A DNA stretch of 64,000 nucleotides, taken from positions 41,464,157 to 41,528,156 of the forward strand of contig OX424562.1 of the NCBI GenBank assembly GCA_949152475.1, given 5' to 3'. The first letter of the stretch is position 1; each line of letters starts with the position of its first letter. Of this stretch, positions 13,684 through 39,879 are shown one piece after another. The notes beneath the pieces are model-generated. The model did not search any database. It saw nothing but the letters and a program-made list of their open reading frames with translations, and had not been told where the DNA came from. Position numbers and translations under genes: made by a program. This DNA is from Terebella lapidaria (taxonomy: Eukaryota; Annelida; Polychaeta; Terebellida; Terebellidae).

Positions 13684-13710
13684 GACATCCCGGGGTGTCC
13701 CCGGGATGTC
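13684..13710. repeat. Perfect 12-bp hairpin
   Basis: GACATCCCGGGG, a TGT loop, then CCCCGGGATGTC: arms are identical over 12 bp. It stands at the edge of antisense fragments of the satellite families and resembles the terminal hairpins of family B elements, so it may be the end of a related element. Confidence 0.75.
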
Positions 13711-13759
13711 AATCAGTGAACTGATGTTATATATTATTCTTAATATCTCACTATATATT

Positions 13760-14270
13760 GAGAATAGAGATTAGGAATCATTGTCGACGTACAGGAAATG
13801 ATATATGCTAAATATTCTCATGACATTGAACTTGACTGCATTTTCAAGGACAGAGCAAAAAATGGCTAATATCTCGCCTGATATCGACTTTACAACTTTA
13901 TGTCATAGGAAATGATATATGCCGAATATTCTTATGACCTTGAACTTGACCAGTGACCTTATTTTCAAGGTCACGGTACAAATGGCTAATATATAAATAT
14001 AAAACACATATTGTCCTGTATCCTTTCTTAGCCTTTGGGCTATTTTTTTTCCAAAATCATACATAAGAGTTCCCTTATGTTCCTTTGTGACATGTATAAA
14101 TTTTATTGCCATTATTTCGCCAATCTGCACGTTGGAGTCATTTTGATTTTTGGATGCGTCAGCGGAATTTTTTTTCGTCCGAAATCAAGTCACTATCTGT
14201 TTCGAGCCATTTCTTGGACCTAGAAAACTTCATCCACTTTATCGTTCATAATGGGAGCTGTATTGAGTAA
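13760..14270 (-). repeat. Antisense fragments of the 134-bp and 454-bp repeat units
   Basis: On the minus strand, 13780-14010 contains two decayed copies of the 134-bp unit (TCATGACCTTGAACTTGACC is its reverse-complement wording). At about 14030-14050 the plus strand reads TTAGCCTTTGGGCTATTTTT, the reverse of the family A left end. From 14060 to 14270 it reads as a reversed 454-type unit (CATAATGGGAGCTG). The fragment is therefore inverted relative to the main block. Confidence 0.65.
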
Positions 14271-14896: not shown

Positions 14897-17436
14897 ACTA
14901 GACGTCAAGGCCTAAAGGCCTTGGAGGCGTTTCAGGGTGAAGCATGAAAAACACAAAATGCTGACTCAGCAAAAACATGATAAGCTCCCAATGAGACGTT
15001 TTTGCAATTACATATATGTGAAGGACAAACTTGATACTCCTAAGACTATCTGTGTAATGTCTGTTTTGCTCTAGGTCGCACCGTTTCTGAGGAATCGATG
15101 AAAATGAAAAATGCCGACTCGGCGAAAAACTTTCAGGTCAAGGTCAAAGTTAATTCCCAATACCCCTCAGAAATGTTTGTCTAGGGCCACGAGTCCGAAA
15201 ATAACTTCCGTTTCGCTCTACGATGCAGTTTCCGAGATATCGATGAAAATGAAAAATGCCGGCTCAGTGAAAAATTAGGCCAAGGGCCGAAGATAGGTTA
15301 CCGGACAATGTTTAATATTTTAGATGTTAGCCAGGTCACTGGTTGAATTCAAGGTCAAGAGAATATTCAGCATATATAACATTAAGCATATATCATGTCC
15401 ACAGTTGATTGCTAAGCTGTAAATTCAATAATCAGAGAGATATTAGCAATTTTGTGCTGTGGCCTTGAAAATGAAGGGGCAAAGGTCAAATTCAAGATCA
15501 TCAAAATATTCAATGTATATCATTTTCTATATCATGTCCACAATTGATTCCCAAGCCATAAAGTCAATAGAGGAGCTAGATATGAGCCAGTTTGTCCTTG
15601 GACCTTGAAAATAAGGTCAGAGGTCAAATTCAAGGTCACGAGAATATTCAGCATATATCATTTCCTATATGTCCACAATTGATTCCTAAGCTGTAAAATC
15701 GATAATAAGTGAGATATTAGCCATTTTGTCATGTGACCTTGAGAATGAGGTCAAAGGTCAAATTCAAGGTCATGACAATAATCTGCATATATCATTTCCT
15801 ATATGTTCATAATTGATTGCTAAGCTGTAAAGTCGATAACAAGCGAGATATTAGCCATTTTGTCCTGTGACCATGAAAATGAGTTCGAAGGTCAAATTCA
15901 AGGTCATCAGAATATTCAGCATATATCATTTCCTATATGTCCACAATTGATTCCTAAGCTGTAGAGTCGATAATAAGCGAGATATAAGACATTTTGTGCT
16001 CTGACCTTGAAACTGAGGTCAGAGGTCAAATTCAAGGTCACGAGAATATTCAGCATATATTATTTTCTATAAGTCCACAATTGATTCCTAAGCTGTAGAG
16101 TCGATAATAAGCGAGATATAAGCCATTTTGTGCTCTGACCTTGAAACTGAGGTCAGAGGTCAAATTCAAGGTCACGAGAATATTCAGCATAAATCATTTC
16201 CTATATGTCCACAATTGATTCCTAGTCTCTAATCTCAATATCAAGTGAGATTTTAGGCATAATGTGTCCCATTATAAAGCATAGGAAAATTTACCATGGG
16301 AAAGTCCCATTTGGGCCGAGTTTGGGCCAAAATGGCCCACTTCGAGCGATTCAAGCGCAACGAAATTTATAGACATCATAGAAGTACATATGAGGAGTCT
16401 TATGTATCAAAAAGAAAAAAAGTTACTGAACAGATTTTGAGAAAAAGTCCAAAATCAGGCATTTTTCGTCGAAAACGGCCGCCATTTTGAAGAAAAAGCG
16501 AAAATCAAAAAACTAAAAAATACCTCCTTCTTGAATTATTTTTAAGTATTTTTCTGCAAAATTTCAGAAAAATTCGCCCATAAACAAAAAAGATAAAAAT
16601 GTGGACGACGACGACGACGACGGACGACGGACGCCACGCCATGCCAATAGGTTATCGGACCATAGGTCCGGTAACCTAAAAATTTAAGGTCAAGGTTCAT
16701 CCCTAGTACCCTTTAGATATGTTTGTCTAGGGCCACGAGTCCGAAAATAATGTCCATTTCGACCTATGACGCACCGTTTCCGAGATATCGATGAAAACAA
16801 AAAATGCCGATAGGTCATAGGTCATAGGTCAACCGTATTACCCTTAAGACATGTTTGTCTAGGGCCACGAGTCCGAAAATAACGTCTGTTTCGCTCTATG
16901 ATGCACCGTTTCTGAGATGTCGGCGAAAACGAAAAATGCCGACTCAGCGAAAAAATTTAAGGTCAAGGTCAAAGGTCATCCATAACACCCCTTAGACATC
17001 TTTGTCTAGGATGACGAGTCCGAAAATAACGTCCGTATCGCTCTACGACGCACCGTTTCCGAGATATGCATGAGAGCCTCAAGGATGACTCAGCTAAAAT
17101 TATTTCGAGCCCTAGGTCAAAGGTCGTTTGACGGATCGGCCTCAAAATCAATAGGCTTCTTCCCTGGTGATATATGAACATCCATGCAAAGTGTCACAGT
17201 CAATGCCATGATACTTTTCGAGTTATCGTGCGGAAACCAAAAATATTGATTTCATCCTCACGGACCTCACGGACCCCGGAGCTGGCTCAAAAACAATAGG
17301 CGTCTTCTACACAACATTTCTGACCAGCGGTGAAAATTTGGCGAAGGTACATCGAGGCAAACTGAAGTTATCATGCGGAAACCGAAAAGTGAAAAAAAAA
17401 ACCATAAAGACATTTCTGCTGAAATGCCTCAACAAG
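14897..17436 (+). mobile_element. Family B hairpin-ended element, interrupted by a family A copy
   Basis: The left end reads ACTAGACGTCAAGGCC followed by TAAAGGCCTTGGAGGC, a small stem. The core has decayed copies of the unit seen at 31-32 kb (GTTTGTCTAGGGCCACGAG, CGCACCGTTTCCGAGATAT, AAAATGCCGACTCAGCGAAA). The right part has the conserved tail (TTATCATGCGGAAACC, poly-A, ACCATAAAG) and ends in the stem ACATTTCTGCTGAAATGCCT near 17430. Without the inserted family A copy (15275-16677) it is about 1.1 kb. No coding capacity. Confidence 0.7.
15275..16677 (+). mobile_element. Family A copy 1 (134-bp core), inserted into a family B element
   Basis: It begins TTAGGCCAAGGGCCGAAG with AGGTTACCGGACAA. 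It contains about seven 134-bp units, then the conserved right flank (GCATAATGTGTCCCATTATA, CATGGGAAAGTCCCATTTGG, a GGCCGCCATTTTG patch, and GAC repeats at 16604-16625). It ends with TAGGTTATCGGACC, ATA, GGTCCGGTAACCT. The flanks, GTGAAAAA on the left and AAAAATTTAAGG on the right, rejoin into the uninterrupted sequence seen in a sister unit at about 16950-16966. That fixes both ends of the element to within a few A bases. Confidence 0.8.
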
Positions 17437-19014: not shown

Positions 19015-20270
19015 TTAGGCCAAGGGCCAAAGATAGGTTACCGGACAATGTTTAATATTTTAGATGTTAGCCAGGTCACTGGTTGAATTCAAGGTCAAGA
19101 GAATATTCAGCATATATAACATTAAGCATATATCATGTCCACAGTTGATTGCTAAGTTGTAAATTCAATAATCAGAGAGATATTAGCAATTTTGTGCTGT
19201 GGCCTTGAAAATGAAGGCAAATGTCAAATTCAAGGTAATCAAAATATTCAGTGTATATCATTTTTTATATGTCCACAATTGATTCCCAAGACATACAGTC
19301 AATAGAGGAGCAAGATATGAGCCATTTTGTCCTGTGACCTTGAAAATGAGGTCAGAGGTCAAATTCAAGGTCACGAGAATCTTCAGCATATATCATTTCC
19401 TATATGTCCACAATTGATTCCTAAGCTGTAAAATCCATAATAAGTGAGATATTAGCCATTTTGTCCCGTGACCTTGAAAATGAGGTCAAAGGTCAAATTC
19501 AATGTCATGACAATAATCTGCATATCATTTCCCATATGTTCATAACTGTTTCCTGAGCTGTAAAGTCGATACAAGCAAGATATTAGCCATTCTGTCCTAT
19601 GACCTTGAAAAAGGGGTCGAAGGTCAAATTCAAGGTCATCAGAATATTCAGCATATATCATTTCCTATATCTCCACAATCGATTCCTAAGCTGTAGAGTC
19701 GATAATAAGCGAGATATAAGCCATTTTGTGCTCTGACCTTGAAACTTGAGGTCAGAGGTCAAATTCAAGGTCACGAGAATATTCAGCATATATCATTTCC
19801 TATATGTCCACAATTGATTCCTAGTCTCTGATATCAATATTAAGTGAGATATTAGGCATAATGTGTCCCATTATAAAGCATAGGAGAATTTAACATGGGA
19901 AAGTCCCATTTGGGCCGAGCCAAAATGGCCCACTTCGAGCGATTCAAGCGCAACGAAATTCATAGACATCATAGGAGTACATATGAGGAGTGTTATGTAT
20001 CAAAAAGAAAAAAAGTTACTGAACAGATTTTGAGAAAATGGCCGCCAAAGTCCAAAATCAGGCATTTTTCATCGAAAACGGCCGCCATTTTGAAAAAAAT
20101 GCGAAAATAAAAAAACTAAAAAATACCACCTTCTTGAATTATTTTTAAGTATTTTTGTGCAAAATTTCAGAAAAATTCGCCCGTAAACAAAAAAGATAAA
20201 AATGTGGACGACGACGACGACAGACGCAACGCCATGCCAATAGGTTATCGGACCATAGGTCCAGTAACCT
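19015..20270 (+). mobile_element. Family A copy 2 (134-bp core)
   Basis: Left end TTAGGCCAAGGGCCAAAG with AGGTTACCGGACAA; about six 134-bp units; right flank as in copy 1; (GAC)n tract at 20208-20224; terminal stem TTATCGGACCATAGGTCC with the variant end AGTAACCT. Collinear with copy 1 over its whole length. Confidence 0.8.
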
Positions 20271-20708
20271 AAAAACGTCTTTAGATACTGGCCTAAGGTA
20301 TTTTCTGACTAATTTATGGGGAAATTCATCATGTCAAAAAAAAGTTACAGACCCGGACGGACGACAGACGGACGACGGACGAAATACCACGACAATAGCT
20401 TATCGGCCCAAAGGGCGGTAAGCTAAAAATGTTAACGCCGGACGGACGGACGGACGGGTGAACGGACGGGCGTTACGGGCGGACCCAATGTTAAATTTCC
20501 TATCTTAACTTCCCCCATAAGTCCTGAAAAAATCCCCATAAGACCGCACTTTTGGCTTAAACTGTGGTTGTGGGGCGTTTTCAGCTTTATTCCCCCTAAG
20601 AAATCCCCATAACTCCGTTCCGTTTGCCCGGACAGACGGACGGACGGACGTACGGACGACGGACGCAACGCCATGCCAATAGGTTATCGGACCAAAAGTC
20701 CGGTAACC
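20271..20708 (+). repeat. Two or three extra right-end fragments with GGAC minisatellite
   Basis: Two more right ends follow directly. One is a degenerate version at 20390-20426 (CTTATCGGCCCAAAGGGCGG). The other is a good version ending at 20708 (TTATCGGACCAAAAGTCCGG). Each is preceded by GGACGGAC-type tracts (20437-20470 and 20630-20665). They are detached 3' ends of family A, left by truncation or by repeated capture of the end. Confidence 0.65.
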
Positions 20709-20727
20709 TACTAAAGACTGGTTTTAA

Positions 20728-23093
20728 AGTCGGCGCATAATTTATTGGCGCGAACATATCTCATGAAATCTCGGAACTTACTGACTTGTATTATATGAGA
20801 TTCAGGCAACGTTTGAACAAGACTGTGACCAAAGTTGCTGACGTGAATTTGAAGTTTGTTCTTCACACAGAAAATAATTATTTCAATAAATACGATTTAA
20901 ATGGGATTTTACCATTGTAAAAATGAGCGGGAAAGTGGAAAGTTAAAACAGTGGTGAATGCCAATGCAACAGCTCATTAATGCAAAGAAAAGTCATTGGT
21001 CTGACCAATGGTGTGCAACGGTCTGAAAAGTAATATGCGATGACTTATGCTGTTCAAAAACTGATAGTGGTCATATTTTGATGTCCCGGAAAGGCTGAGA
21101 ATATTGGTTTATATTTGGGTGTGAAACTGAGTGTCAGGCCGAACAGGACAAAAATTATATATTTGATTGCAGTGCATTGTTATCTCGCTAAACAGACGAG
21201 CATATTCAGTTTCATCAATATATGAATTGATAATTTGAGGTGTCTAATTTTTGACCAGCTTTGTATCGTGCCCGTCTATGCTCACGTTACTCTGGCCTTT
21301 GAGTCCAATTGAAATCCTCTGAGCTTAGCTTAGTTTTGGTTGAGGGACTGTCTCAAAAAAGCTATGGAAAAGATTTTTTAAAATTAGCCCAAAGGCTAAG
21401 ATAGGTTTCCGGACAATTTTGGTTTGGCCATGGCAGCATTGGCAGGTAACAAACCTTGAGATTTACCAATCAAGGTTCGCAGTGTAAACATATGACCTTG
21501 AGATTTACCAATCAAGGTCAACCGTATGAACTTCGATGTCACCATTACATGTATGTGTGCGGCATTTGATATTCTATATGTTCATAATACAAAGATATAT
21601 CTGGGTGGAATCGTTTAGGCCGCTCAGCTCAATTTACACATTCCAAGTCAGACATTTGGCACTCAAGGTCATCTGACATCAAGTTCAAGGTCATCATTAG
21701 TTGTGCCATATATGTCTTCCTATATGTTCATAATGCAAACATGAGCTCTATCTGCAAGCATTTCATCTATAGAGGCAAATCTGGGCATTTTTCGACCCAA
21801 AAATGGCTGTTTTGACCTTTCAAGGTCATCCAAGGTCAAATTCAAGGTCACCACACAAGTCGCCATATATGACTTCCCATTTGAACGTGCCAATTTCCAA
21901 GCTCTATCTTCAAGCGTTCTATGAGTACAGTCCGGACAGCTCCCATGATGAAGGAAAAAAGTGCCGAAAATTTTCTAAGTCCACAATTTTTTTGAAAGGG
22001 TGAAAAAAATTTTTTGCCTAGAAATGGCCCAAAATGGATAGTAATGCGATTTGGGGCGAAAAAATTTTTTTCGCCGACTTGTCGAAATTTCAAAATGGCC
22101 GCCACACGTAGATCGGCGAATTTAGGGCAACCAAACTTATACATATCACAGACGTATATAAGAGGAGTCTTTATAAACAAAAATCTCAAAACTGATCAGA
22201 CAGTTTTTGAGAAAATGGCCGTCGAAGTCCAAAATTGAGCGTTTTTCGACAAAAACGGCCGCCATTTTGAAACAAATGCGAAAATCAAAAAACAAAAAAA
22301 TACCTCCTTCTCAAAATATTCTTAGGCATTATTGTGCAAAATTTCAGAAAGATTCGATCGTTAACTTTAAAGATAAAATGGTAACGCCGGACGGACGGAC
22401 GGACGGACGGACGGACGACGGACGCAACGCCATGCCAATAGGTTATCGGACCAAAGGTCCGGTAACCTAAAAATGACAAAATGTTTGTGCTTGATTGCGC
22501 TGTTGATCATTCAAGCAAAGTTTCGTTCCTGATAATATATTTTCAACGTACAGCACATATGCCTATATTCTTTAACAGATGAGCCAAAATATACCCGTGC
22601 CCCATAACACATGTATAATAATATCTTTGAGCGTAACATGAAGTTGTTGTTCAAAGTCATCGACAAGATCCACATTGATCGGGTCGGCATACATCTGGGT
22701 GAATCCAGCAGTTCAGATTTGGACTGAAGAATTACCGTAGATATTGTGTGATTATGATTTCTTGAATGCGAAATATATTCAAGCACGTGTAATAGAATTA
22801 ATTATTATCATTGCATTTTCTTTGAGAAGGCCCCTATTCAAATCGGCTATTCCATTGATTTGTCTCAATCCCATACAACATCAAAATGGCAAGCTAGAAT
22901 TCCCATGTTAAAACCCCATAAGGATATATATTTTCCTAGATATCTCGACGAGAAAAGCACACGACAGAAAAACAGCCATTGTTTCACAATGGTCATGGTG
23001 CCGTTTTCACTTTATATAATTTGCAAATAATACAAGTTAGTATGTTCGGAGATATGACGAGATATGTTCGCGCCAATAAATTATGCGTCGACT
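20728..23093. mobile_element. TTAA-flanked inverted-repeat DNA transposon, carrying family A copy 3
   Basis: The left terminus (AGTCGGCGCATAATTTATTG from 20728) and the right terminus (reverse complement AGTCGACGCATAATTTATTG, ending 23093) match at 34 of 35 positions by eye and stay similar for about 70 bp. Both sides are bordered by TTAA (20724-20727 and 23094-23097), the target duplication of piggyBac-like and some other transposases. Subtracting copy 3 of family A leaves about 1.3 kb with no coding capacity, so it is non-autonomous. Confidence 0.8.
21384..22468 (+). mobile_element. Family A copy 3 (about one 454-type unit)
   Basis: Left end TTAGCCCAAAGGCTAAG with AGGTTTCCGGACAA; a core of divergent 454-type sequence (TTTCAAGGTCATCCAAGGTC; GCCGCCACACGTAG); right flank with (GGAC)n at 22389-22424; right end TTATCGGACCAAAGGTCCGG and TAACCT. 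It has the same ends as copies 1 and 2 but a different core. Confidence 0.75.
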
Positions 23094-23107
23094 TTAATAA
23101 CTAAAAA

Positions 23108-24431
23108 TTAGACCAAGGGCCGAAGATAGGTTACTGGACAATGTTTGATATTTTAGATGTTCAGGTCACTGGTTGAATTCAAGGTCAAGAGAATATTCAG
23201 CATATATAACATTAAGCATATATCATGTCCACAGTTGATTGCTAAGCTGTAAATTCAATAATCAGCGAGATATTAGCAATTTTGTGCTGTGGCCTTGAAA
23301 ATGAAGGGGCAAAGGTCAAATTCAAGGTCATCAAAATATTCAGTGTATATCATTTTCTATATCATGTCCACAATTGATTCCCAAGCCATACAGTCAATAG
23401 AGGAGCAAGATATGAGCCAGTTTGTCCTTGGACCTTGAAAATGAGGTCAGAGGTCAAATTCAAGGTCCAAGAATATTCAGCATACATGTATATCATTTCC
23501 TATATGTTCATAACTGATTCCTAAGCTGTAAAGTCGATAACAAGCGAGATATTAGCCATTTTGTCCTATTATCTTGAAAATGCGGTCAAAGGTCAAATTC
23601 AGGGTCATCAGAATATTCAGCATATATCATTTCCTATATGTCCACAATTGATTCCTAAGCTGTAGAGTCGATAATAAGTGAGATATTAGCCATTTTGTCC
23701 TGTGACCTTGAAAATGAGGTCAAAGGTCAACTTCAAGGTCATGACAATAATCTGCATATATCATTTCCTATATGTTCATAACTGATTCCTAAGCTGTAAA
23801 GTCGATAACAAGCGAGATATTAGCCATTTTGTCCTATGACCTTGAAAATGGGGTCAAAGGTCAAAATCAAGGTCATCAGAATATTCAGCATATATCATTT
23901 CCTATATGTCCACAATTGCTTGCTAAGCTGTAGAGTCGATAATAAGCGAGATATCAGCCATTTTAGGCTCTGACCTTGAATTGAGGTCAGAGGTCAAATT
24001 CAAGGTCACGAGGATATTCAGCATATATCATTTCCTATATGTCCACAATTGATTCCTAGTCTCTAATCTCAATATTAAGTGAGATATTAGGCATAATGTG
24101 TCCCATTATAAAGCATAGGAGAATTTAACATGGGAAAGTCCCATTTGGGCCAAAATGGCCCACTTCGAGCGATTCAAGCGCAACGAAATTTATAGACATC
24201 ATAGAAGTACATATCAGGAGTGTTATGTATCAAAAAGAAAAAAAGTTACTGAACAGATTTTGAGAAAATGGCCACCAAAGTCCAAAATCAGGCATTTTTC
24301 GTCGAAAACGGCCGCGATTTTGAAAAAAATGCGAAAATCAAAAAACTAAAAAATTCCTCCTTCCTGAATTATTTTTAAGTATTTTTGTGCAAAATTTCAG
24401 AAGAATTCGCCCGTAAACAAAAAAGATAAAA
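23108..24431 (+). mobile_element. Family A copy 4 (134-bp core), right end lost
   Basis: Left end TTAGACCAAGGGCCGAAG with AGGTTACTGGACAA, about seven 134-bp units, and the right flank up to AAACAAAAAAGATAAAA. At that point copy 5 begins. The GAC tract and terminal stem of this copy do not reappear after copy 5, so the end was lost, not merely displaced. Confidence 0.7.
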
Positions 24432-27400
24432 TTAGCCCAATGGGCTAGAAAGGTCACCGGAGAAATATACAGAGTTAAGCCGAGAAAGTTGAAGGTCAAA
24501 CTCAAGGTGACCACTGAAATCGCCATATCTCTAACCTTGAAAATGGGATCAAAGGTTAAATTCTAGATCACCAAACTATTCAGCATACATCATTTCCTAT
24601 ATGTTCACTATGGACCCCTAAGCTGTAAATTTGATAATAAGCGAGATATAAGCCATTTTGTAATCTGACTTTGAAAATAAAATGACTGACCTTGAAATTT
24701 AGGTCAAAGGTCAAATTCAATATCATTAAAATATTCAGAATATATCATTTCCTATATGTTCACAATTCATTCCTAAGCTGTAAAGTCGATAATAAGCGAG
24801 ATATTAGCCATTTTGTCCTGTTGACCTTGAAAATGAGGTCAAAAGTCAAATTCAAGGTCACTAGAATATTCAGCATATATAATTTCCTATATGTTCACAA
24901 TTGATTTCTAAGCTGTAAAGGCGCTAATAAGCAAGATATTGGCCATTTTGTCCTGTGACCTTGAAAATGAGGTCAAAGGTCAAATTCAAGTTCATGAGAA
25001 TATTCAGCATATATCATTTCCTATATGTTCACAATTGGTTCCTAAGCTGTAAAGTCGATAATAAGCGAGATATTAGCAATTTTGTCCTGTGACCTTGGAA
25101 ATGAGGTCAAAGGTCAAATTCAAGGTCATGAAAATATTCAGCATATATCATTTCCTATATGTTCACAATTGATTCCTAAGCTGTAAAGTCGATAATAAGC
25201 GAGATATTAGCCATTTTGTCATGTGACCTTGAAAATGAGGTCAAAGGTCAAATTCAAGGTCATGAGAATTTTCAGCATATATCATTTCCTATATGTTCAC
25301 AATTGATTCCTAAGCTGTAAAGTCGATAATAAGCGAGATATTAGCCATTTTGTCCTGTTGACCTTGAAATTGAGGTCAAAAGTCAAATTCAAGGTCACTA
25401 GAATATTCAGCATATATCATTTCCTATATGTTCACAATTGATTTCTAAGCTGTAAAGGCGCTAATAAGCAAGATATTGGCCATTTTGTCCTTCGACCTTG
25501 AAAATGAGGTCAAAGGTCAAATTCAAGTTCATGAGAATATTCAGCATATATCATTTCCTATATGTTCACAATTGATTCCTAAGCTGTAAAGTCGATAATA
25601 AGCGAGATATTAGCAATTTTGTCCTGTGACCTTGGAAATGAGGTCAAAGGTCAAATTCAAGGTCATGAGAATATTCAGCATATATCATTTCCTATATGTT
25701 CACAATTGATTCCTAAGCTGTAAAGTCGATAATAAGCGAGATATTAGCCATTTTGTCATGTGACCTTGAAAATGAGGTCAAAGGTCAAATTCAAGGTCAT
25801 GAGAATTTTCAGCATATATCATTTCCTATATGTTCACAATTGATTCCTAAGCTGTAAAGTCGCTAATAAGCAAGATATTGGCCGTTTTGTCCTGTGACCT
25901 TGAAAATGAGGTCAAAGGTCAAATTCAAGGTCACGAGAATTTTCAGCATATATCATTTCCTATATGTTCACAATCGATTCCTAAGCTGTAAAGTAGCTAA
26001 TAAGCAAGATATTGGCCATTTTGTCCTGTGACCTTGAAAATGAGGTGAAAGCTCAAATTCAAGGCCACGAGAATATTCAGCATATATCATTTCCTATATG
26101 TTCACAATTGATTCCTAAGCTGTAAAGTCGATAATAAGCGAGATATTAGCAATTTTGTCCTGCGACCTTGGAAATGAGGTCAAAGGTCAAATTCAAGGTC
26201 ACGAAAATATTCAGCATATATCATTTCCTATATGTTCACAATTGATTCTTAAACTGTAAAGTCGATAATAAGCGAGATATTAGCCATTTTGTCATGTGAC
26301 CTTGAAAATGAGGTCAAAGGTCAAATTCAAGGTCACAAGAATATTCAGCATATATCATTTCCTATATGTTCACAATTGATTCCTAAGCTGTAAAGTCGAT
26401 AATAAGCGAGATATTAGCCATTTTGTCATGTGACCTTGAAAATGAGGTCAAAAGTCAAATTCAAGGTCATGAGAATTTTCAGCATATATCATTTCCTATA
26501 TGTTCACAATTGATTCCTAAGCTGTAAAGTCGCTAATAAGCAAGATATTGGCCGTTTTGTCCTGTGACCTTGAAAATGAGGTCAAAGGTCAAATTCAAGG
26601 TCACGAGAATTTTCAGCATACATGTATATCATTTCCTATATGTTCACAATTGATTCCTAAACTGTAAAGTCGATAATAAGCGAGATATTAGCCATTTTGT
26701 CATGTGACCTTGAAAATGAGGTCAAAGGTCAAATTCAAGGTCACAAGAATATTCAGCATATATCATTTCCTATATGTTCACAACTGATTCCTAAGCTGTA
26801 AAGTCGATAATAAGCGAGATATTAGCCATTTTGTCCTGTGACCTTGAAAATGAGGTCAAAAGTCAAATTCAAGGTCACGAGAATATTCAGCATATATCAT
26901 TTCCTATATGTCCACAATTCATTCCTAGTCTCTAATTTCAATATTAAGTGAGATATTAGGCTTAATGTGTGCCATTATAAAGCATAGGAAAATTTAACAT
27001 GGGAAAGTCACATTTGGGCCGAGTTTGGGCCCAAAATGGCCCACTTCAAGCGATTCAAGCGCAACGAAATTTATACATGTCACAGGGGTACATATGAGGA
27101 GTGTTTTTCATCAATAAGAAAAAAAAGTTACTGAACAGATTTTGAGAAAACGACCGTCGAAGTCCAAAATAGGCCATTTTTTGACGAAAACGGCCGCTCT
27201 GACCTTGAAACCAAGGTCAGAGGTCAAATTCAAGGTCACGACAATATTCAGCATATATCATTTCCTATATGTCCACAATTGATTCCTTGTCTCTAATCTC
27301 AATATTAAGTGAGATATTAGGCTTTAATGTGTCCCATTATAAAGCACAGGAGAATTTAACATGGGAAAGTCCCATTTGGGACGAGTTTGGGCCCAAAATG

Positions 27401-27721
27401 GCCCACTTCGAGCGATTCAAGCGCAACGAAATTTATACATGTCACAGGGGTACATATGAGGAGTGTTATGCATCAAAAATGGCCGCCAAAGTCCAAAATC
27501 AGGCATTTTTCGTCGAAAACGGCCGCCATTTTGAAAAAAATGCGAAAATCAAAAAACTAAAAAATACCTCCCTCTCGAAATATTTTTAGGCATTTTTGTG
27601 CAAAATTTCAGAAAAATTCGATCGTAAACTTTAAAGATAAAATTGTTGACGGACGACGACGGATGACGACGCCGGACGCATCGCCATGCCAATAGGTTAC
27701 GGACCATAGGTCCGGTAACCT
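24432..27721 (+). mobile_element. Family A copy 5: largest 134-bp array
   Basis: Left end TTAGCCCAATGGGCTAG with AGGTCACCGGAG; about 17 units of 134 bp from 24500 to 26930. Each unit has TGACCTTGAAAATGAGGTCA, then AGGTCAAAGGTCA, then TCAAGGTCA, then an AT-rich stretch with ATATATCATTTCCTATATG. Measured spacings of the CCTAAGCTGT word are 134 bp (25041, 25175, 25309). A right flank at 26930-27210 is followed by another partial unit and a second right flank. Then come GAC repeats and the end GGACCATAGGTCCGGTAACC at 27700-27720. About a dozen units keep a perfect DR1. Confidence 0.82.
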
Positions 27722-28155
27722 AAAAATTCATCAAGGCAAAAAAAAGTTATTTGCCGGACAAAAGACGGACGGACGGCTAGACGGAACAAAGTTCAGTGGA
27801 TACTATTATCTTGCCGCATCTGCCGCCACGACCACTGTACAGATTTTATTGTGAACGCTCTGAAGTTGCATCTCTGAACTGATTGTAATATTATTTTATA
27901 AGGACATTTCTTATGGTAGGTTTTTCTGTAAAGTATTTTTTAGAAAATAATAAATCAAAGTAGTTCATTAAAATCAAGAGTATTACTGCATCGATTACTG
28001 GACAGAAAGAGTTAAGACTTTGAACTTTGAACGGCAGAGACGATATTATATCTGATTTAACATACTTTAGACAACCAGGATGATAAGGCATCAGGGGGAA
28101 TAGACCCACGTGGTCGTTGGTGACAGGAAAGCGTCTAGTTATATTGATAGCTCAC
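27722..28155. other. Short unique island beside the EFL1-like exon
   Basis: The first 60 bases carry a leftover GGAC tract (about 27760-27790). The rest is AT-rich. No continuation exon of EFL1 is recognisable downstream (lower coordinates) of the exon at 28156. Confidence 0.4.
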
Positions 28156-28615: not shown

Positions 28616-28740
28616 CTAGACGTCAAAGCCTATTGATGCCTTGGAGGCATTTCGGTGTAGAGACTAACCTGTAACATTTATAATATGCTGGTCACGAAAG
28701 ATACCAAACAAACAAACAAAATGGTAACTCACATGAAACA
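28616..28740 (+). repeat. Family B left-end fragment
   Basis: It reads CTAGACGTCAAAGCCTATTG then ATGCCTTGGAGGCATTTCGG, the family B start with its small stem (GATGCCTTGGAGGCATTTC). It is cut short after about 125 bp by family A sequence. Just before it (28395-28440) there is a three-fold repeat of ACATAGCACCAA wording. Confidence 0.6.
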
Positions 28741-29257
28741 TTGGGCCAAGGGCCAAAGATAGGTTACCGGACAATATATGTTTAATATTTTAGATGTTAG
28801 CCAGGTCACTGGTTGAATTCAAGGTCAAAAGAATATTCAGCATATATAATATTAAGCATATATCATGTCCACAGTTGATTGCTAAGCTGTAAATTCAATA
28901 TTCAGAGAGATATTAACAATTTTGTCCTGTGGCCTTGAAAATGAAGGCAAAGGTCAAATTATCAGAATATTTGGCGTATATATGTCCTTCATTAATTCCC
29001 ACACTATGAAGACAAAAAGTGAGATATTAGCCATTTTGTTCTGTCACCGTGAAAATCAGGTCAAAGGAAATTTGAAAAAAATTAGCCCAAGGGCTAAGAA
29101 AAGTTACCGGGCAATATATATTTTAGATATTAACCTTCTGTCCCCTGACCTTGAAAATGAGGTCATTGGTCAATTCAAGGTCATGAGAATCGACTGGACA
29201 ATTTACCATTTTCCATAATTCTGCAGAAATACGAAATATTGTATTCAAAATATAAAA
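28741..29257 (+). repeat. Two truncated family A left ends
   Basis: Left ends at 28741 (GGGCCAAGGGCCAAAG, AGGTTACCGGACAA) and at 29082 (TTAGCCCAAGGGCTAAG, AAGTTACCGGGCAA) each lead into only one or two 134-type units before the next element begins. They show repeated insertion or truncation at family A left ends. Confidence 0.65.
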
Positions 29258-30411
29258 TTAGGCCAAGGGCCAAAGATAGGTTACCGGACAATGTTTAATA
29301 TTTTAGGTATTAGCCAGGTCACTGGTTGAATTCAAGGTCAAGAGAATATTCAGCATATATAACATTAAGCATATATCATGTCCACAGTTGATTGCTAAGC
29401 TGTAAGTTCAATAATCAGTGAGATATTAGCATTTTTATGCTGTAGCCTTGAAAATGAAAGGGCAAAGGTCAAATTCAAGGTCATCAAAATATTCAGTGTA
29501 TATCATTTTCTATATCATGTATATCATGTCCACAATTGATTCCCAAGCCATACAGTCAATAGAGGAGCAAGATATGAGCCAGTTTGTCCTTGGACCTTGG
29601 AAATGAGGTCAGAGGTCAAATTCAAGGTCACGAGAATATTCAGCATATATCATTTCCTATATGTCCACAATTGATTCCTAAGCTGTAAAATCGATAATAA
29701 GTGAGATATTAGCCATTTTGTCCTGTGACCTTGAAAATGAGGTCGAAGGTCAAATTCAAGGTCATCAGAATATTCAGCATATATCATTTCCTATATGTCC
29801 ACAATTGATTCCTCAGCTGTAGAGTCGATAATAAGCGAGATATAAGCCATTTTGTGCTCTGACCTTGAAACTGAGGTCAGAGGTCAAATTCAAGGTCACG
29901 AGAATATTCAGCTTATATCATTTCCTATAGGTCCACAATTGACTCCTAGTCTCTAATCTCAATATCAAGTGAGATATTAGGCATAATGTGTCCCATTATA
30001 AAGCATAGGAGAATTTAACATGGGAAAGTCCCATTTGAGCCGAGTTTGGGCCAAAATGGCCCACTTCGAGCGATTCAAGCGCAACGAAATTTATAGCCAT
30101 CATAGGAGTACATATGAGGAGTGTTATTTATCAAAAAGAAAAAAAGTTACTGAACAGATTTTGAGAAAATGGCCGCCAAAGTCCAAAATCAGGCATTTTT
30201 CGTCGAAAACGGCCGCCATTTTGAAAATAATGCGAAAATCAAAATACTAAAAAATACCTCCTTCTTGAATTATTTTTAAGTATTATTGTGCAAAATTTCA
30301 GAAAAATTCGCCTGTAAACAAAAAAGATAAAAATGTGGACGACGACGACGACGACGGACGACGGACGCAACGCCATGCCAATAGGTTATCGGACCATAGG
30401 TCCAGTAACCT
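29258..30411 (+). mobile_element. Family A copy 8 (134-bp core), both ends present
   Basis: Left end TTAGGCCAAGGGCCAAAG; about five 134-bp units; right flank; (GAC)n at 30337-30365; right end GGACCATAGGTCC then AGTAACCT. With about 1.15 kb it is one of the shortest full copies and a good reference for the family. Confidence 0.8.
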
Positions 30412-30416
30412 AAAAA

Positions 30417-30735: not shown

Positions 30736-30867
30736 ATAATTTGAATACCATAATTCGTATTTTGTATTATAATAATACGAAATACGCTTTTGTTATATTG
30801 TCCGGACTGGAGAATGTTCAACATATATCATTTCTAGTATACATGTTCACAATCGATTCCTACCATA

Positions 30868-32652: not shown

Positions 32653-33075
32653 TATTCAATTAGTTCGAACACTCTAATTATTCGAACACCAAAAATTATT
32701 CAAGACAATAATTTTTAAATTGACTCGTTTAGTTCAAACAGGCAAATTTACGAGCGAAATTTCGATTGAAACAACGAACGAAATCAACTTGTCAGCTGCC
32801 AAAACTTAAGAAAATATTCGCCAGGTGGCAGTGTTTGCGATTACCGTATTTATTCAATTAGTTCGAACAGCTAAAAATAATTAAATTTTGGAATGTTCGA
32901 ATTATTAGATTCACGATAAAATCATCCGTCAAAACGACAAAAAAACCCCAATCCCAGATCGATCATGCCTTGGCAGATAGGCCTACGCGAGTTGACAGAT
33001 GCTGCTCATGTTGGCTGGTTAGGGCCTGTACGATTGATAGGTTAACTGCAGACAACTAGCAAGCATTTTTAAAAA
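32653..33075. other. Unique island with small inverted TTCGAA-type repeat
   Basis: No gene. TCTAATTATTCGAACA near 32675 and its near reverse complement TGTTCGAATTATTAGA near 32897 suggest a small MITE of about 240 bp. ATTCAATTAGTTCGAACA also occurs directly twice (about 32656 and 32855). Confidence 0.4.
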
Positions 33076-35019
33076 TTAGGCCAAGGGCCAAAGATAGGTT
33101 ACCGGACAATGTTTAATATTTTAGATGTTAGCCAGGTCACTGGTTGAATTCAAGGTCAAGAGAATATTCAGCATATATAACATTGAGCATATATCATGTC
33201 CACAGTTGATTGCTAAGCTGTAAATTCAATAATCAGCGAGATATTAGCAATTTTGTGCTGTGGCCTTGAAAATGAAAGGGCAAAGGTCAAATTCAAGGTC
33301 ATCAAAATATTCAGTGTATATCATTTTCTATATCATGTCCACAATTGATTCCCAAGCCATACAGTCAATAGAGGAGCAAGATATGAGCCAGTTTGTCCTT
33401 GGACCTTGACAATGAGGTCAGAGGTCAAATTCAAGGTCCAAGAATATTCAGCATATATCATTTCCTACATGTCCACAATTGATTCCTAAGCTGTAAAATC
33501 GATAATAAGTGAGATATTAGCCATTTTGTCCTGTGACCTTGAAAATGAGGTCAAAGGTCAAATTCAAGGTCATGACAATAATCTGCATATATCATTTCCT
33601 ACATGTTCATAACTGATTCCTAAGCTGTGAAGTCGATAACATGCGAGATATTAGCCATTTTGTCCTATGACCTTGAAAATGGGGTCAAAGGTCAAATTCA
33701 AGGTCATCAGAATATTCAGCATATATCATTTCCTATATGTCCACAATTGATTCCTAAGCTGTAGAGTCGATAATAAGTGAGATATTAGCCATTTTGTCCT
33801 ATGACCTTGAAAATGGGGTCAAAGGTCAAATTCAAGGTCATCAGAATATTCAGCATATATCATTTCCTATATGTCCAGAATTGATTCCTAAGCTGTAGAG
33901 TCGATAATAAGTGAGATATTAGCCATTTTGTCCTGTGACCTTGAAAATGAGGTCAAAGGTCAAATTCAAGGTCATGACAATAATCTGCATATATCATTTC
34001 CTATATGTTCATAACTGATTCATAAGCTGTAAAGTCGATAACAAGTGAGATATTAGCCATTTTGTCCTATGACCTTGAAAATGGGGTCAAAGGTCAAATT
34101 CGAGGTCATCAGAATATTCAGCATATATCATTTCCTATATGTCCACAATTGATTCCTAAGCTGTAGAGTTGATAATAAGCGAGATATCAGCCATTTTGTG
34201 CTCTGACCTTGAAATTGAGGTCAGAGGTCAAATTCAAGGTCACGAGAATATTCAGCATATATCATTTCCTATATGTCCACAATTGATTCCTAAGCTGTAG
34301 AGTCGATAATAAGTAAGATATTAGCCATTTTGTCCTATGACCTTGAAAATGGGGTCAAAGGTCAAATTCAAGGTCATCAGAATATTCAGCATATATCATT
34401 TCCTATATGTCCACAATTGATTCCTAAGCTGTAGAGTCGATAATAAGTGAGATATTAGCCATTTTGTCCTGTGACCTTGAAAATGAGGTCAAAGGTCAAA
34501 TTCAAGGTCATTACGATAATCTGCATATATCATTTCCTATATCTTCATAACTGATTCCTAAGCTGTAAAGTCGATAACAAGCGAGATATTAGCCATTTTG
34601 TCCTATGACCTTGAAAATGGGGTCAAAGGTCAAATTCAAGGTCATCAGAATATTCAGCATATATCATTTCCTATATGTCCACAATTGATTCCTAAGCTGT
34701 AGAGTCGATAATAAGCGAGATATTAGCCATTTTGTGCTCTGACCTTGAAATTGAGGTGTCAAATTCAAGGTCACGAGAATATTCAGCATATATCATTTCC
34801 TATATATCCACAATTGATTCCTAGTCTCTAATCTCAATATTAAGTGAGATATTAGGCATAATGTGTCCCATTATAAAGCATAGGAGAATTTAACATGGGA
34901 AAGTCCCATTTGGGCCGAGTTTGGGCCAAAATGGTCCATTTCGAGCGATTCAAGCGCAACGAAATTTATAGACATCATAGAAGTACATATCAGGAGTGTT
35001 ATGTATCAAAAAGAAAAAA
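33076..35019 (+). mobile_element. Family A copy 9 (134-bp core), interrupted on the right
   Basis: Left end TTAGGCCAAGGGCCAAAG; roughly a dozen 134-bp units to 34800. Units with ATAATCTGCATATATCATTT (33573, 33976 and a variant at 34518) recur among the others, suggesting multi-unit duplication. The right flank is followed to ATCAAAAAGAAAAAA, where copy 10 begins. Its GAC tract and terminal stem probably reappear at about 39540-39803. Confidence 0.75.
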
Positions 35020-36823
35020 TTAGCCCAAGGGCTAAGATAGGTTACCGGACAACTTTAGTTGAAACAGAACAGGTGAGATATGACGTTAAGATGAACCAAT
35101 CATCTTCGTGAACTTCAATGTCATCATTAAGTGTGCAGCATATAACATTGTATTCATGTATGTTCAAAATACAAATACAAGGTCTATCTACAAGTCTTTT
35201 GTCTATAAACGAAATTTATACATTTCTTGTTGGACGTGACACTGAGATATAGCACTCAATGTCATCTGACGTCAAGTTCAACGTCACCCAAAAAAGCCAC
35301 ATATATATGTGGTATACATGTATATGACTTCCAATTCCAGCTATACCTACAAACATTTTTTGGCTGTAGAGGCCAATTTACACACTCAAGGGGCCTTTTA
35401 AGCAATTCAAAGCACTCCATCTTTATACACAATGTCAGGGACCCCAATTAGCATGTTTTATAACAAAAATCTCAAAACTGATCAGATAAATTTGAAGGAA
35501 AACGACCAAAAATTAAATTTGGGGCCTATTCAGCCTAAATTTCTAGCCTTTTGAGCAATTCAAGGCACTTCATACACTATATACATATTTATACACATCA
35601 TGTCAAAAAACCCAATTACTATGTTTTGAAATAAAAATCTCAAAAGTGATCAGACAGTTTTCGATTAAAGACAAACAAGGTGCAAATTTGGGCATTTTTC
35701 GACTCAAAAATGGCTGTTTTGACATTTCAAGGTCATCCAAGGTCAAATTCAAGGTCACCACACAAGTCGCCATATATGACTTCCCATTTGAAAGTGCTAA
35801 TTTCTAAGCTCATCTTCAAGCATTCTATGAGTACAGTCTAGGCAGCTCCCATTATGGAGGAAAAAAGTGCCGAAAATTTTCAAAGTCCCAAATTTTTTTC
35901 AAAGGGTGAAAATTTTTTTTTGGCCTAGAAATGGCCCAAAATGGATAGTAACGCAATTTGGGGCAAAAAAAAATTTTTTCGTCGACCCGTCAAAAATTCA
36001 AAATGGCCGCCACACGGAGACCAGCGATTCAAGGGCAACAAAACTTATACACATCATAAAGGTACATAGAGGGAATCTTCTGAAACGAAAATCTCAAAAC
36101 TGATCAGACAGTTTTCGAGAAAAGACAGAAAAGCTGCAAATTTGGGCATTTTTCGACCCAAAAATGGCTATTTTGACCTTTCAAGGTCATCCAAGGTCAA
36201 ATTCAAGGTCACCACACAAGTCGCCATATATGACTTCCCATTTGAAAGTGCCAATATCTAAGCTCTATCTTTAAGCGTTCTATGAGTACAGTCCGGGCAG
36301 CTTCCATTATGAAGGAAAAAAGTGCCGAAAATTTTCTAAGTCCAAAATTTTTTTCAAAGGGTGAAAATTTTTTTTTTGCCTAGAAATGGCCCGAAATGGA
36401 TAGTAACGCGATTTGGGGCAAAAAAAAAATTTTCCGCTGACCCGTCAAAAATTCAAAATGGCCGCCACACGGAGACCGGCGATTCAAGGGCAACAAAACT
36501 TATACACATCATAAAGGTACATAAGGGGAATCTTTTGAAACGAAAATCTCAAAACTGATCAGACAGTTTTTGAGAAAATGGCCGCCAAAGTCCAAAATTG
36601 GCCATGTTTCGTCAAAAATGGCCGCCATTTTGAGAAAATTGCGAAAATCAAAAAACTAAAAAAAAACCCCCTCTTGAAATATTTTTAGGCATTTTTGTGC
36701 AAAATTTCAGAAAAATCCGCCTGTAAACTTTAAAGATACAGCTGTGGACGGACGACGGACGACGGACGGACGACGGACGCAACGTGACGGCAATAGGTTA
36801 TCGGACCATAGGTCCGGTAACCT
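35020..36823 (+). mobile_element. Family A copy 10 (454-type core)
   Basis: Left end TTAGCCCAAGGGCTAAG with AGGTTACCGGACAA; a diverged leader; 454-type units from about 35690 and 36150; right flank (GGCCGCCATTTTGAG); GGAC-rich tract at 36748-36780; end GGACCATAGGTCCGGTAACC and T at 36803-36823. It is inserted in the right flank of copy 9. Confidence 0.75.
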
Positions 36824-39535
36824 AAAAATGTGGAAAAAAAAATGTGCCATTTATACATGACTTTTTTACAGGCTTATACACAATCCTAACCTGTATGTGC
36901 AAAAGTTTATGCTTCAGAGGCCACTTTCAAGATTTCAAGTCAGACATTTAGCACTCAAGGTCATCCAAGGTCAAAATCAAGGTCATCATTAGTTGTTCCA
37001 TATATGACTTCCTATATGTTCATAATGCAAACTGAAGCTCTATCTACATGCATTTCATCTGTAGAGGCATCTGTAGAGACCTTTCAAGGTCAAATTCAAG
37101 GTCCCATCCCCAATCGCTATATATGACTTCCTATTTGAAAGTGCCAATATCTAAGCTCTATCTTCAAGCGTACTATGAGTACAGTCCTGGCAGCTCCCAT
37201 TATGAGGGAAAAAAGTGCCGAATATTTTTTAAGTCCAAAACTTTTTTCAAAGGGTGAAAATTTTTTTTTGTCTAGAAATGACCCAAAATGAATAGTAACG
37301 CGATTTGGGGCAAACGAAACTTTTTTCGCCGACCCGTCAAAAATTCAAAATGGACGCCACACGGAGACCGGCGATTCAAGGGCAACAAAACTTATAGACA
37401 TCATAAAGGTACATAAGGGGAATATTTTGAAACAATAGTCTCAAAACTGATCAGACAGTTTTCGAGAAAAGACAGTCCAGGTGCAAATTTGAGCATTTCT
37501 CGACCCAAGAATGGCTGTTTTGACCTTTCAAGGTCATCCAAGGTCAAATTCAAGGTCACCACACAAGTCGCCATATATGACTTTCCATTTGAAAGTGCCA
37601 ATATCTAAGCTCTATCTTCAAGCGTTCTATGAGTACAGTCCCGGCAGCTCTCATTATGAAGGAAAAAAGTGCCGAAAATTTTCTAAGTCCAAAATTTTTT
37701 TCAAAGGGTGAAAAATTTTTTTTGTCTAGAAATGACCCAAAATGGATAGTAACGCGATTTGGGACCAAAAAAATTTTTTTCGCCGACCCGTCAAAAATTC
37801 AAAATGGCCGCCACACGGAGACCGGCGATTCAAGGGCAACAAAACTTATAGACATCATAAAGGTACATAAGGGGAATATTTTGAAACAATAATCTCAAAA
37901 CTGATCAGACAGTTTTCGAGAAAAGACAGTCCAGGTGCAAATTTGAGCATTTCTCGACCCAAGAATGGCTGTTTTGACCTTTCAAGGTCATCCAAGGTCA
38001 AATTCAAGGTCACCACACAAGTCGCCATATATGACTTTCCATTTGAAAGTGCCAATATCTAAGCTCTATCTTCAAGCGTTCTATGAGTACAGTCCCGGCA
38101 GCTCTCATTATGAAGGAAAAAAGTGCCGAAAATTTTCTAAGTCCAAAATTTTTTTCAAAGGGTGAAAATTTTTTTTGTCTAGAAATGACCCAAAATGGAT
38201 AGTAATGCGATTTGGGACCAAAAAAAATTTTTTTCGCCGACCCGTCAAAAATTCAAAATGGCCGCCACACGGAGACCGGCGATTCAAGGGCAACAAAACT
38301 TATAGACATCATAAAGGTACATAAGGGTAATATTTTGAAACAATAATCTCAAAACTGATCAGACAGTTTTCGAGAAAAGACAGTCCAGGTGCAAATTTGA
38401 GCATTTCTCGACCCAAGAATGGCTGTTTTGACCTTTCAAGGTCATCCAAGGTCAAATTCAAGGTCACCACACAAGTCGCCATATATGACTTTCCATTTGA
38501 AAGTGCCAATATCTAAGCTCTATCTTCAAGCGTTCTATGAGTACAGTCCCGGCAGCTCTCATTATGAAGGAAAAAAGTGCCGAAAATTTTCTAAGTCCAA
38601 AATTTTTTTCAAAGGGTGAAAATTTTTTTTTGTCTAGAAATGACCCAAAATGGATAGTAACGCGATTTGGGACCAAAAAAAATTTTTTTCGCCGACCCGT
38701 CAAAAATTCAAAATGGCCGCCACACGGAGACCGGCGATTCAAGGGCAACAAAACTTATAGACATCATAAAGGTACATAAGGGGAATATTTTGAAACAATA
38801 ATCTCAAAACTGATCAGACAGTTTTCGAGAAAAGACTCCAGGTGCAAATTTGAGCATTTCTCGACCCAAGAATGGCTGTTTTGACCTTTCAAGGTCATCC
38901 AAGGTCAAATTCAAGGTCACCACACAAGTCGCCATATATGACTTTCCATTTGAAAGTGCCAATATCTAAGCTCTATCTTCAAGCGTTCTATGAGTACAGT
39001 CCCGGCAGCTCTCATTATGAAGGAAAAAAGTGCCGAAAATTTTCTAAGTCCAAAATTTTTTTCAAAGGGTGAAAATTTTTTTTTGTCTAGAAATGACCCA
39101 AAATGGATAGTAACGCGATTTGGGACCAAAAAAATTTTTTTCGCCGACCCGTCAAAAATTCAAAATGGCCGCCACACGGAGACCGGCGATTCAAGGGCAA
39201 CAAAACTTATACACATCATAAAGGTACATAAGGGGAATCTTTTGAAACAAAAATCTCAAAACTGATCAGACAGTTTTTGAGAAAATGGCCGCCAAAGGCA
39301 AAAATTGGCCATTTTTCGTCAAAAATGGCCGCCATTTTGAGAAGAATGCGAAAATCAAAAAACTAAAAAATAACCCCCTCTTGAAATATTTTTAGGCAAC
39401 TTTGTGCAAAATTTCAGGAAAATCCGCCTGTAAACTTTAAAGATAAAAATGTGGACGGACGACGGACGACGGACGCCGGACGACGGACGGACGACGGACG
39501 CAACGCGACGGCAATAGGTTATCGGACCATAGGCC
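36824..39535 (+). repeat. Tandem array of about 454-bp units, four nearly identical
   Basis: After a diverged start (36824-37500), four units begin at equivalent points 37511, 37965, 38419 and 38872: periods of 454, 454 and 453 bp. Differences between them are a handful of bases and poly-A/T length changes. Each unit contains TTTCAAGGTCATCCAAGGTC, CCACACAAGTCGCCATATAT, GCAGCTCTCATTATGAAGG, GGCCGCCACACGGAGACC and AAACTGATCAGACAGTTTTC. It ends with a family A right flank and GGAC tract (39450-39500) and a broken right end at about 39535. The 66-codon frames repeated in it are by-products of the period. Confidence 0.82.
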
Positions 39536-39879
39536 ACTTTGGCCACCAAAGTCCAAAATCAGGCATTTTTCGTCGAAAACGGCCGCCATTTTGAAAAAAA
39601 TGCGAAAATCAAAAAACTAAAAAATACCTCCTTCTTGAATTATTTTAAAGTATTTTTGTGCAAAATTTCAGAAGAATTCGCCCGTAAACAAAAAAGATAA
39701 AAATGTGGACGACGACGACGACGACGGACGACGACGACGACGACGACGGACGACGGACGCAACGCCATGCCAATAGGTTATCGGACCATAGGTCCGGTAA
39801 CCTAAAAATGTGGACGACGACGACGACGACGGACGCAACGCCATGCCAATAGGTTATCGGACCATAGGTCCGGTAACCT
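39536..39879 (+). repeat. Family A right end, with its last 76 bp duplicated
   Basis: A 134-type right flank (CCACCAAAGTCCAAAATCAG) with a long GAC tract (39708-39760) ends at 39803 with GGTCCGGTAACCT. The sequence from AAAAATGTGGACGACG to the terminus is then repeated, ending at 39879. It is probably the displaced right end of copy 9. The double terminus may come from slippage in the GAC tract or from end read-through and capture. Confidence 0.7.

Follow-up and report, generated by a model that had tools for sequence, protein, structure and literature searches.

Non-autonomous Helentron elements (HINEs) that carry satellite arrays have been described in several animals, and the system closest to the locus treated here is Cg_HINE of the oyster Crassostrea gigas (PMC7492417; this and the other published systems are compared here through excerpts of the papers cited). 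In Cg_HINE a 5' subterminal inverted repeat (subTIR), a complementary inverted repeat and a GTC-type microsatellite stand on one side, a central satellite array follows in fixed orientation, and a 3' subTIR and a palindrome close the opposite side; the target is T-rich, there is no target site duplication, and group 2 combines related flanks with different arrays. The same overall plan is found in pearl/CvE, MgE and DTC84 of bivalves (named in PMC7492417) and in DINE-1 of flies and HINE-Mo of mites (PMC4067079), and for flies, mites and Culex a Helentron partner with Rep/helicase plus endonuclease has been reported (PMC4067079). Oyster genomes are rich in satellites carried by HINEs (PMC11136912), and the excerpt of PMC7492417 calls the relation of the C. 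gigas HINEs to autonomous Helentrons unresolved. Here we describe a stretch of 64,000 nucleotides from the annelid Terebella lapidaria (assembly GCA_949152475.1, contig OX424562.1, positions 41,464,157 to 41,528,156; hereafter the window, on the contig that we label C8), in which an earlier model-made reading, the original prediction, had noticed a nest of hairpin-ended elements. On every feature tested these elements agree with HINEs, and they very probably form a nested cluster of HINEs, mobilised in trans by Helentrons that have like ends and belong to the same genome. Satellite-carrying HINEs are already known; what is new here is the family together with a candidate Helentron partner.

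The orientation drawn in the original prediction has to be reversed: its left end is the 3' end, and reading the minus strand gives the order known from HINEs. In this direction an element opens with TTTTT-AGGTTACCGGACC, which is the 5' subTIR, a three-base loop and the inverted copy GGTCCGATAACCT; next comes a block conserved as ATTGGCATGGCGTTGCGTCC or in close variants, followed by a GTC microsatellite, a tail of ~350 bp and the tandem array; and the 3' side consists of the 3' subTIR (T)GTCCGGTAACCT, ATCT, the palindrome TTAGCCCTTGGGCTAA or TTYGGCCCTTGGCCTAA directly at the 3' end, and a T-run of the host. Subterminal inverted repeats in the range of 11-15 bp are present at both ends (AGGTTACCGGAC / GTCCGGTAACCT), in the window as well as in the Helentron copies described below, and the microsatellite and central tandem repeats, which are frequent but not universal in such elements, are present too. 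Up to this point the plan is that described for Cg_HINE, fixed orientation of the array included.

Ten left ends were found on the plus strand of the window, from 15,295 to 35,039, with a left-end 13-mer and at most two mismatches, and the opposite strand yielded one degenerate match near 14,012; matches of the same search to the arms of the right-end hairpin and to words inside the 134-bp arrays are excluded from this count. The right-end hairpin (AGGTTATCGGACC, then ATA or AAA, then GGTCCGGTAACCT) was likewise found ten times, from 16,649 to 39,879, with a 20-mer and at most four mismatches, the hairpin at 39,516 being incomplete. Six copies are complete and uninterrupted, and the arrays between such ends have units of 134 bp or of 454/455 bp. 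The original prediction had counted at least ten left and about ten right ends with 134-bp or 454-bp units between the same ends, and on both points it was right. Insertions are fewer than ends, since a 76-bp 5' terminal module repeated in tandem (39,736-39,884) accounts for two of the ten right ends and the segment 36,829-39,533 is joined head-to-tail to 35,020-36,828. As for the span first given to the cluster (13,684-39,879), at its left limit stands another hairpin (GACATCCCGGGGTGTCCCCGGGATGTC) that lies outside the family.

Genome-wide searches, which cover the whole assembly (761.6 Mb), returned 16,134 left-end 13-mers (7,973+8,161) versus 20 for the reversed pattern (13+7), and 11,139 exact 28-base right ends (5,449+5,690) versus 0 (0+0); because these controls are near zero, chance is excluded for both ends. 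The core words occur 30,785 times for the 134-bp core and 3,725 times for the 454-bp core. Whether ends and arrays co-occur elsewhere, a check proposed with the original prediction, was surveyed at the start of contig C1, where only exact matches were counted, among 100 listed left ends (of the 16,134), 69 of 100 listed right ends, 100 listed 134-core words (36 clusters) and 29 of 100 listed 454-core words (23 clusters). On this stretch they do co-occur, and in one orientation. Among the matches listed, a same-strand left end lay within 3.5 kb of 19 of the 36 134-core clusters, a right end of 21, both of 13 and either of 27, and the corresponding figures for the 23 454-core clusters were 20, 18, 17 and 21; within that distance, none of the 59 clusters had an end in the wrong orientation. 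With random placement, one end would be expected in 2.5-4.4% of cases and both ends in 1.3%. Furthermore, 57 of the 100 listed left ends had an exact same-strand right end within 6 kb (1.0-5.9 kb apart, median 1,656 bp), versus 4.5% at random. These dispersed paired-end copies speak against the arrays being an artefact of assembly or duplication, that is, a satellite block with scattered end-like words, and although nesting in the window is dense and two related loci contain 200-base runs of N, we hold such an artefact to be extremely improbable.

The insertion sites are T-rich and, a possible T-only 5-bp duplication at one site aside, without target duplication. In the 11 insertions whose two flanks are available, we compared the last bases of the 5' flank with the first bases of the 3' flank; the longest match comprises 2-5 bases and only T's (flanks are rearranged at two of these insertions, 24,432 and 35,020, and a single 5' flank covers just 17 bases). 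Empty sites were found for the C2 copy of the coding Helentron described below, in three paralogs that are 99% identical over 295 bases and a fourth at 93%; the empty site reads GA-T6-CACTAGC and the filled site GA-T5-[element]-T6-CACTAGC. The site of the C5 copy gave 40 matches, of which 20 are full-length paralogous sites (90-93%). Within the window, the HINE at 15,275-16,682 interrupts a 132-bp monomer from a different repeat family, uninserted host copies of which are 68-84% identical, and the paralog of the site at 29,258 (82% identical) has just three T's. Exactly five T's precede 7,005 of the 11,139 exact 5' ends, six or more precede 1,953 and exactly four precede 987; as five is the commonest state genome-wide, the five T's would most simply be the element's own first bases. 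A five-T duplication is contradicted by four of the 11 flank pairs, in which the T-runs are shorter or unequal, although such runs could be mutated.

The same sites bear on whether the elements could be cut-and-paste miniature inverted-repeat transposable elements with AGGTTACCGGAC/GTCCGGTAACCT as terminal inverted repeats. The two subterminal motifs are indeed an inverted match, and five 5' T's with four to seven 3' T's can be read as a T-only duplication of 5 bp. However, neither the 11 flank pairs nor the three-fold empty site hold a common non-T base, a target site duplication of constant length is absent apart from the T's, the ends are asymmetric (hairpin plus microsatellite versus palindrome), and the coding elements with both ends encode Rep, helicase and endonuclease, with no genome search for DDE transposases having been made. 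We therefore give the cut-and-paste explanation almost no credence. The original prediction had named insertion without duplication at T/T or A/T as the mark of a Helentron: the absence of a shared non-T base agrees with it, and the sites do not discriminate between T/T and A/T.

The Helitron Rep domain was scored at 150 of 234 candidate places, and flanks were fetched for six Rep families (A, B, C, E1, E2 and E3). HINE ends were found on family E2. One E2 copy of 19,197 bp (C4:47270082-47289278) has HINE ends on both sides, starting with TTTTTAGGTTACCGGACCTTTGGTCCGATAACCT and ending with TCCGGTAACCTTTCTAGCCCTTGGGCTAA, and its 5' end carries the HINE tail and a 134-bp array. The 3' end TCCGGTAACCTTTCTAGCCCTTGGGCTAA is present in six of seven fetched 3' regions (L047, L051-L055), each time followed by a T-run and a different flank, and was not found in the fetched 3' region L050. 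The 5' end TTTTTAGGTTACCGGACCTTTGGTCCGATAACCTATTGCC is present in L062 (C4), L063 (C2) and L067 (C5, with TTATT in place of T5) and was not found in L069 or in the pieces L046 and L056-L061. Between the C2 and C4 copies, identity is 99.97% across the 6,669 bp that start at the 5' end and 100% across 1,420 bp of 3'-terminal sequence, with different flanks on either side, and L047 and L052 are 100% identical over 900 bp, again with different 3' flanks; since near-identical copies lie in different flanks, E2 has probably moved recently. In L051 (936-1010) a HINE 5' end abuts the Helentron 3' end head-to-tail, with only TTTTTATTTTT between them. Runs of 200 N stand beside the same sequence in L046 (3339-3538) and L058, and these two loci are 100% identical over 854 bp.

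The C4 copy of E2 contains a stop-to-stop frame of 2,517 codons in which HxH and Walker A are present. A profile search with 2,484 aa of this frame gave Helitron_like_N (98.3 bits), DUF6570 and PIF1 over cut-off, and the C-terminal 224 aa searched as a separate piece matched the AP-type endonuclease profile Exo_endo_phos with 27.8 bits, over the cut-off of 24.5. The E2 C-terminus can also be aligned to the C-terminus of family A, where the endonuclease match exceeds its cut-off. From the Rep and PIF1 domains we infer rolling-circle transposition. The genome holds, then, an element coding for Rep and PIF1 with the same kind of termini as the HINEs, and the 19,197-bp E2 Helentron is the probable driver. 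Comparison of the termini with autonomous elements of the same genome had been suggested in the original prediction, and its inference that the elements are passengers of the Helentron type is supported by coding Helentrons with the same two ends, a T-rich target and a clean three-fold empty site. Here lies a difference from Cg_HINE, to which, in the excerpt of PMC7492417, no autonomous Helentron could be related, whereas Helentrons with both kinds of ends accompany the Terebella elements.

When the complete HINEs are reverse-complemented, their alignments start at base 1 of the Helentron. In the 454-type group, the copies at 21,384 and 35,019 align over 350-358 bp, up to position 371 (77.7-80.6%), and the partial copy at 36,829 does so between positions 17 and 371 (80.3%). 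Alignment of the 134-type copies at 15,270, 19,010 and 29,255 extends to position 585 (83.6-85.7%) and then on through the array. The HINE at 24,432-27,726 matches the Helentron's first 1,533 bp with its own first 1,487 bp, at 87% identity. The 5' repeats of the Helentron itself comprise a 134-bp array (822-1,533) and a 360-bp tail-plus-monomer duplication (232-945), and its positions 1,539-2,609 match a second tail-plus-array module. The HINEs look like a Helentron 5' module and 3' terminus without the coding middle.

That the passengers belong to a canonical Helitron (Helitron1) instead of a Helentron is very unlikely in our estimation. Their 3' terminal CTAA fits CTRR and the C2 site can be read as insertion between A and T, but the 5' end is TTTTTAGG and not TC, subTIRs are present, the candidate partner has a C-terminal endonuclease match, and the base before T5 varies (53 A, 29 G and 17 C at 99 of 100 listed ends). 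Among the canonical features (5' TC, 3' CTRR, strict A/T, no endonuclease) it is CTAA alone that fits.

Several observations nevertheless weigh against the assignment of the window elements to HINEs moved by E2-like Helentrons. The 3' sequence common to HINEs and Helentron amounts to only ~30-35 bp, the HINE at 24,432 being closest, and most 3' ends in the window (TGTCCGG...ATCTTAGCCC or ATCTTYGGCCC) are several bases off that of the Helentron (TCTCCGG...TTCTAGCCC). Identity at the 5' side is 78-87%, with ~35 bp at the 3' side, in contrast to the >95% reported for Culex HINEs and their partners (PMC4067079). The first 120 codons of the 2,517-codon frame contain no ATG, Exo_endo_phos scores 21.5 bits on the long E2 protein and so falls below the cut-off, and a PDB sequence search with the E2 C-terminal piece gave no match at E <= 0.01. 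At the C2 site a five-T duplication looks the same as T's owned by the element, and the two cannot be told apart; the C4 insertion lacks 12 bp that are present in other copies of its host repeat; and a spanning site was found for three of the 12 joined flanks tested against fetched loci. Among the matches listed on C1, nine of the 36 134-core clusters are without an exact end in the 3.5 kb to either side. Finally, the fetched flanks of families A, B, C and E1 contain no HINE end in the bounding sense. Because the 3' ends differ and 5' identity is 78-87%, the E2 Helentrons may be cousins of the exact driver, and the partner of the commonest HINEs may be another cousin.

Families B, C and E1 were set aside as drivers on the evidence of their flanks. 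Family A (OTU+Rep+PIF1+endonuclease) was also tried and rejected: the two copies compared share sequence up to the fetched edge and look like a segmental duplicate, and a scan for inverted repeats gave no convincing ends. HINE ends do lie near families A and C, in the opposite sense, and those near family A are only old ones. A search for a driver through 5' ends without the next base of the HINE gave 58 matches, none of which lay (by eye) within 100 kb of the Rep matches listed. A further Rep type was seen at L009/L010.

The original prediction had regarded the cores as exchangeable satellites, and on this point our analysis departs from it. Both core types share ~350-370 bp of 5' sequence with the Helentron. 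In local alignments the 454-bp unit matches the 134-bp monomer (z 14.5) and the tail of the 134-type HINE (z 21.9), with 0 of 200 shuffles as good in either case, and its layout is monomer, a less similar stretch of ~170 bp, and tail. Gap-tolerant global alignment of the 454-bp unit inflates identity, and the local shuffle tests were relied on. Because the unit matches both monomer and tail, the most fitting reading of the 454-bp core is that a larger part of the same element has been repeated in tandem, not that cargo was swapped. True core exchange, in which unrelated satellites are put between fixed ends, has been proposed for Cg_HINE group 2 in oysters (PMC7492417), and here too the same kind of 5' ends hold 134-bp or 454-bp arrays and the ~170-bp stretch resembles the 134-type element weakly. 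It is nonetheless an unlikely account of the Terebella arrays, given that the matches to monomer and tail equalled by none of the shuffles come in the same order and orientation, and that the Helentron has a 360-bp tail-plus-monomer duplication of comparable make. Re-tandemisation inside one lineage, together with exchange of 3' ends, appears to explain the data better than exchangeable cores. Compared by description only, Cg_HINE differs in this respect, since in Terebella the second core is partly homologous to the monomer and tail of the first.

Arrays of 132/148-bp units near 16,687 and 31,021 were considered as relatives of these cores and belong to another family; shuffles as good numbered 123 of 200 for the 148-bp versus the 134-bp unit, 2 of 200 for 132 versus 134, and 8 of 200 for 454 versus 148. 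This second, unrelated array-bearing family, seen at 30,869-32,650 and also at 14,898, 17,402 and 28,616, has a HINE-like plan with left end CTAGACGTCAAGGCCTGAAGATGCCTTGGGGCATTTCG, right end CCATAAGGGCATTTCGGGCCGAAATGCCC and a core of 132-148-bp units.

The consensus 134-bp monomer (e.g. window 24,687-26,959) holds AGGTCAAAGGTCA and TCAAGGTCA, and a 24-mer with both occurs 30,785 times genome-wide. We take these words to resemble nuclear-receptor sites (AGGTCA half-sites). In 118 full-length monomers out of 152 matches, the AGGTCA-like columns are slightly better conserved than the others (0.929 vs 0.899, with 8 of 131 circular shifts as good; 0.937 vs 0.840 for G/C and 0.922 vs 0.927 for A/T). 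The test is weak and we make no functional claim for the half-sites; a literature search on half-sites of this kind found nothing.

Exchange of ends can be followed in a sister lineage, E3 (C2:19,094,638 and C4:21,223,670), whose 3' untranslated region resembles E2 by eye and whose body then passes into a HINE 5' end, a microsatellite and a 134-type array. When the two copies are aligned, identity is 95% across the first 1,486 columns and 81% across the last 369, and the alignment stops just past the 134-type 3' end, beyond which the flanks differ. The junction of E3 body and HINE occurs at five places, three of them 5.7-7.2 kb downstream of a listed Rep match and the other two near none listed, and in L068, the one E3 copy examined there, a HINE-type 5' end lies ~10 kb upstream of the Rep match. 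These data support an exchange of ends in which the E3 Helentron would have taken over a HINE 3' end, and the structure fits terminator bypass as described for Helraiser (PMC4778049). In Helraiser/Helibat a 3' hairpin likewise serves as terminator and read-through makes new 3' ends; that system is a canonical Helitron followed in cultured cells and bat genomes, whereas the present case concerns a Helentron lineage that, judged from its sequence, finishes at a passenger's 3' end.

The features of the window are collected in Table 1. Tandem truncated Helitrons of plants, with many 5' ends and one 3' end, have been described (cited in PMC12628747), and we liken to them the composite at 35,020-39,533, a head-to-tail join with two 5' ends and one 3' end, as well as the 5'-terminus tandem at 39,736-39,884.

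Table 1. HINE copies and fragments in the window (position 1 is its first letter).
Feature	Position	Strand	Remarks
Degenerate HINE piece, opposite orientation	13780..14046	+	3' end TTAGCCTTTGGGCTA; limits by eye
Complete HINE, 134-bp core (6.5 units)	15275..16682	-	3' end 15275; 5' end (T5 on minus strand) 16682
Complete HINE, 134-bp core (5.5 units)	19015..20275	-	
Isolated 5' end and microsatellite remnant	20640..20709	-	
Complete 454-type HINE, about one unit (by eye)	21384..22473	-	5' 358 bp align to the Helentron's first 371 bp
HINE 3' end and 134-bp core, split by the nested 24432-27726	23108..24431	-	5' end not seen
Nested HINE, 134-bp core (16.9 units)	24432..27726	-	3' end TTTCTCCGGTGACC..., the kind on the 19-kb Helentron
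Two truncated 3' ends	28741..29257	-	AGG at 28761 and 29101
Complete HINE, 134-bp core (3.5 units)	29258..30416	-	Uninserted paralogous site (82%) at 30654-30762
HINE 3' part, 134-bp core (12.7 units)	33076..35015	-	Interrupted by 35020-39533
Complete HINE, 454-bp core (2.1 units)	35020..36828	-	
454-type HINE 5' part (4.9 units)	36829..39533	-	Incomplete hairpin at 39516; own 3' end lacking
Resumed tail, microsatellite and 5' end of the element begun at 33076	39534..39803	-	Continuity by eye
5' terminal module in tandem, 76-bp unit	39736..39884	-	98%

Other features of the window lie beside these copies. A variant hairpin end, AGCTTATCGGCCCAAAGGGCGGTAAGCTAAAAA, at 20,380-20,430 has the same design with a different subTIR, and two such words occur in fetched loci; if the other end of this hairpin's element covaries, both ends would be recognised as a pair. 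A stretch of ~2.4 kb (20,730-23,091) with inverted ends TCGGCGCATAATTTATTGGCGCGAACATAT / ATATGTTCGCGCCAATAAATTATGCGTCGA lies between HINE ends. At 429-7,207, minus-strand frames resemble, by eye, a retrotransposon of the Ty3/gypsy type, and the GC content there is 52-55% versus 34-44% in the rest of the window. A literature text search for six end and core words found none of them, which carries little weight as sequence strings are rare in running text.

From what is known of the family, the Rep/helicase/endonuclease would nick at the 5' end, and rolling-circle copying would run through the array and halt at the 3' palindrome; the new copy would then integrate at a T-run, leaving the target unduplicated. 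Errors in this process would shape the cores: re-copying of the 5'-proximal module would yield tandem 134-bp monomers, or tandem monomer-plus-tail units of 360 bp in the Helentron and 454 bp in other HINEs, and reading past one terminator to the next would produce an element with a borrowed 3' end. More tentatively, and as a possibility that we do not yet favour, one Helentron lineage may act as a satellite generator in which rounds of rolling-circle copying re-amplify the 5' module with a shifting boundary (134, 360 or 454 bp) and neighbours trade 3' ends through terminator bypass, such that 'different' satellites and HINE families would be states of one element and new coding lineages could arise from passengers. 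With a family of 11,139 exact 5' ends and its candidate partners in one assembly, the origin of dispersed satellites becomes testable there, as the birth of an array in the driver, its spread in passengers and the exchange of ends can all be traced in the sequences. Caution is also advisable elsewhere in view of the composite 454-bp unit, for 'unrelated' cores between related ends may prove to be related once their tails are compared.

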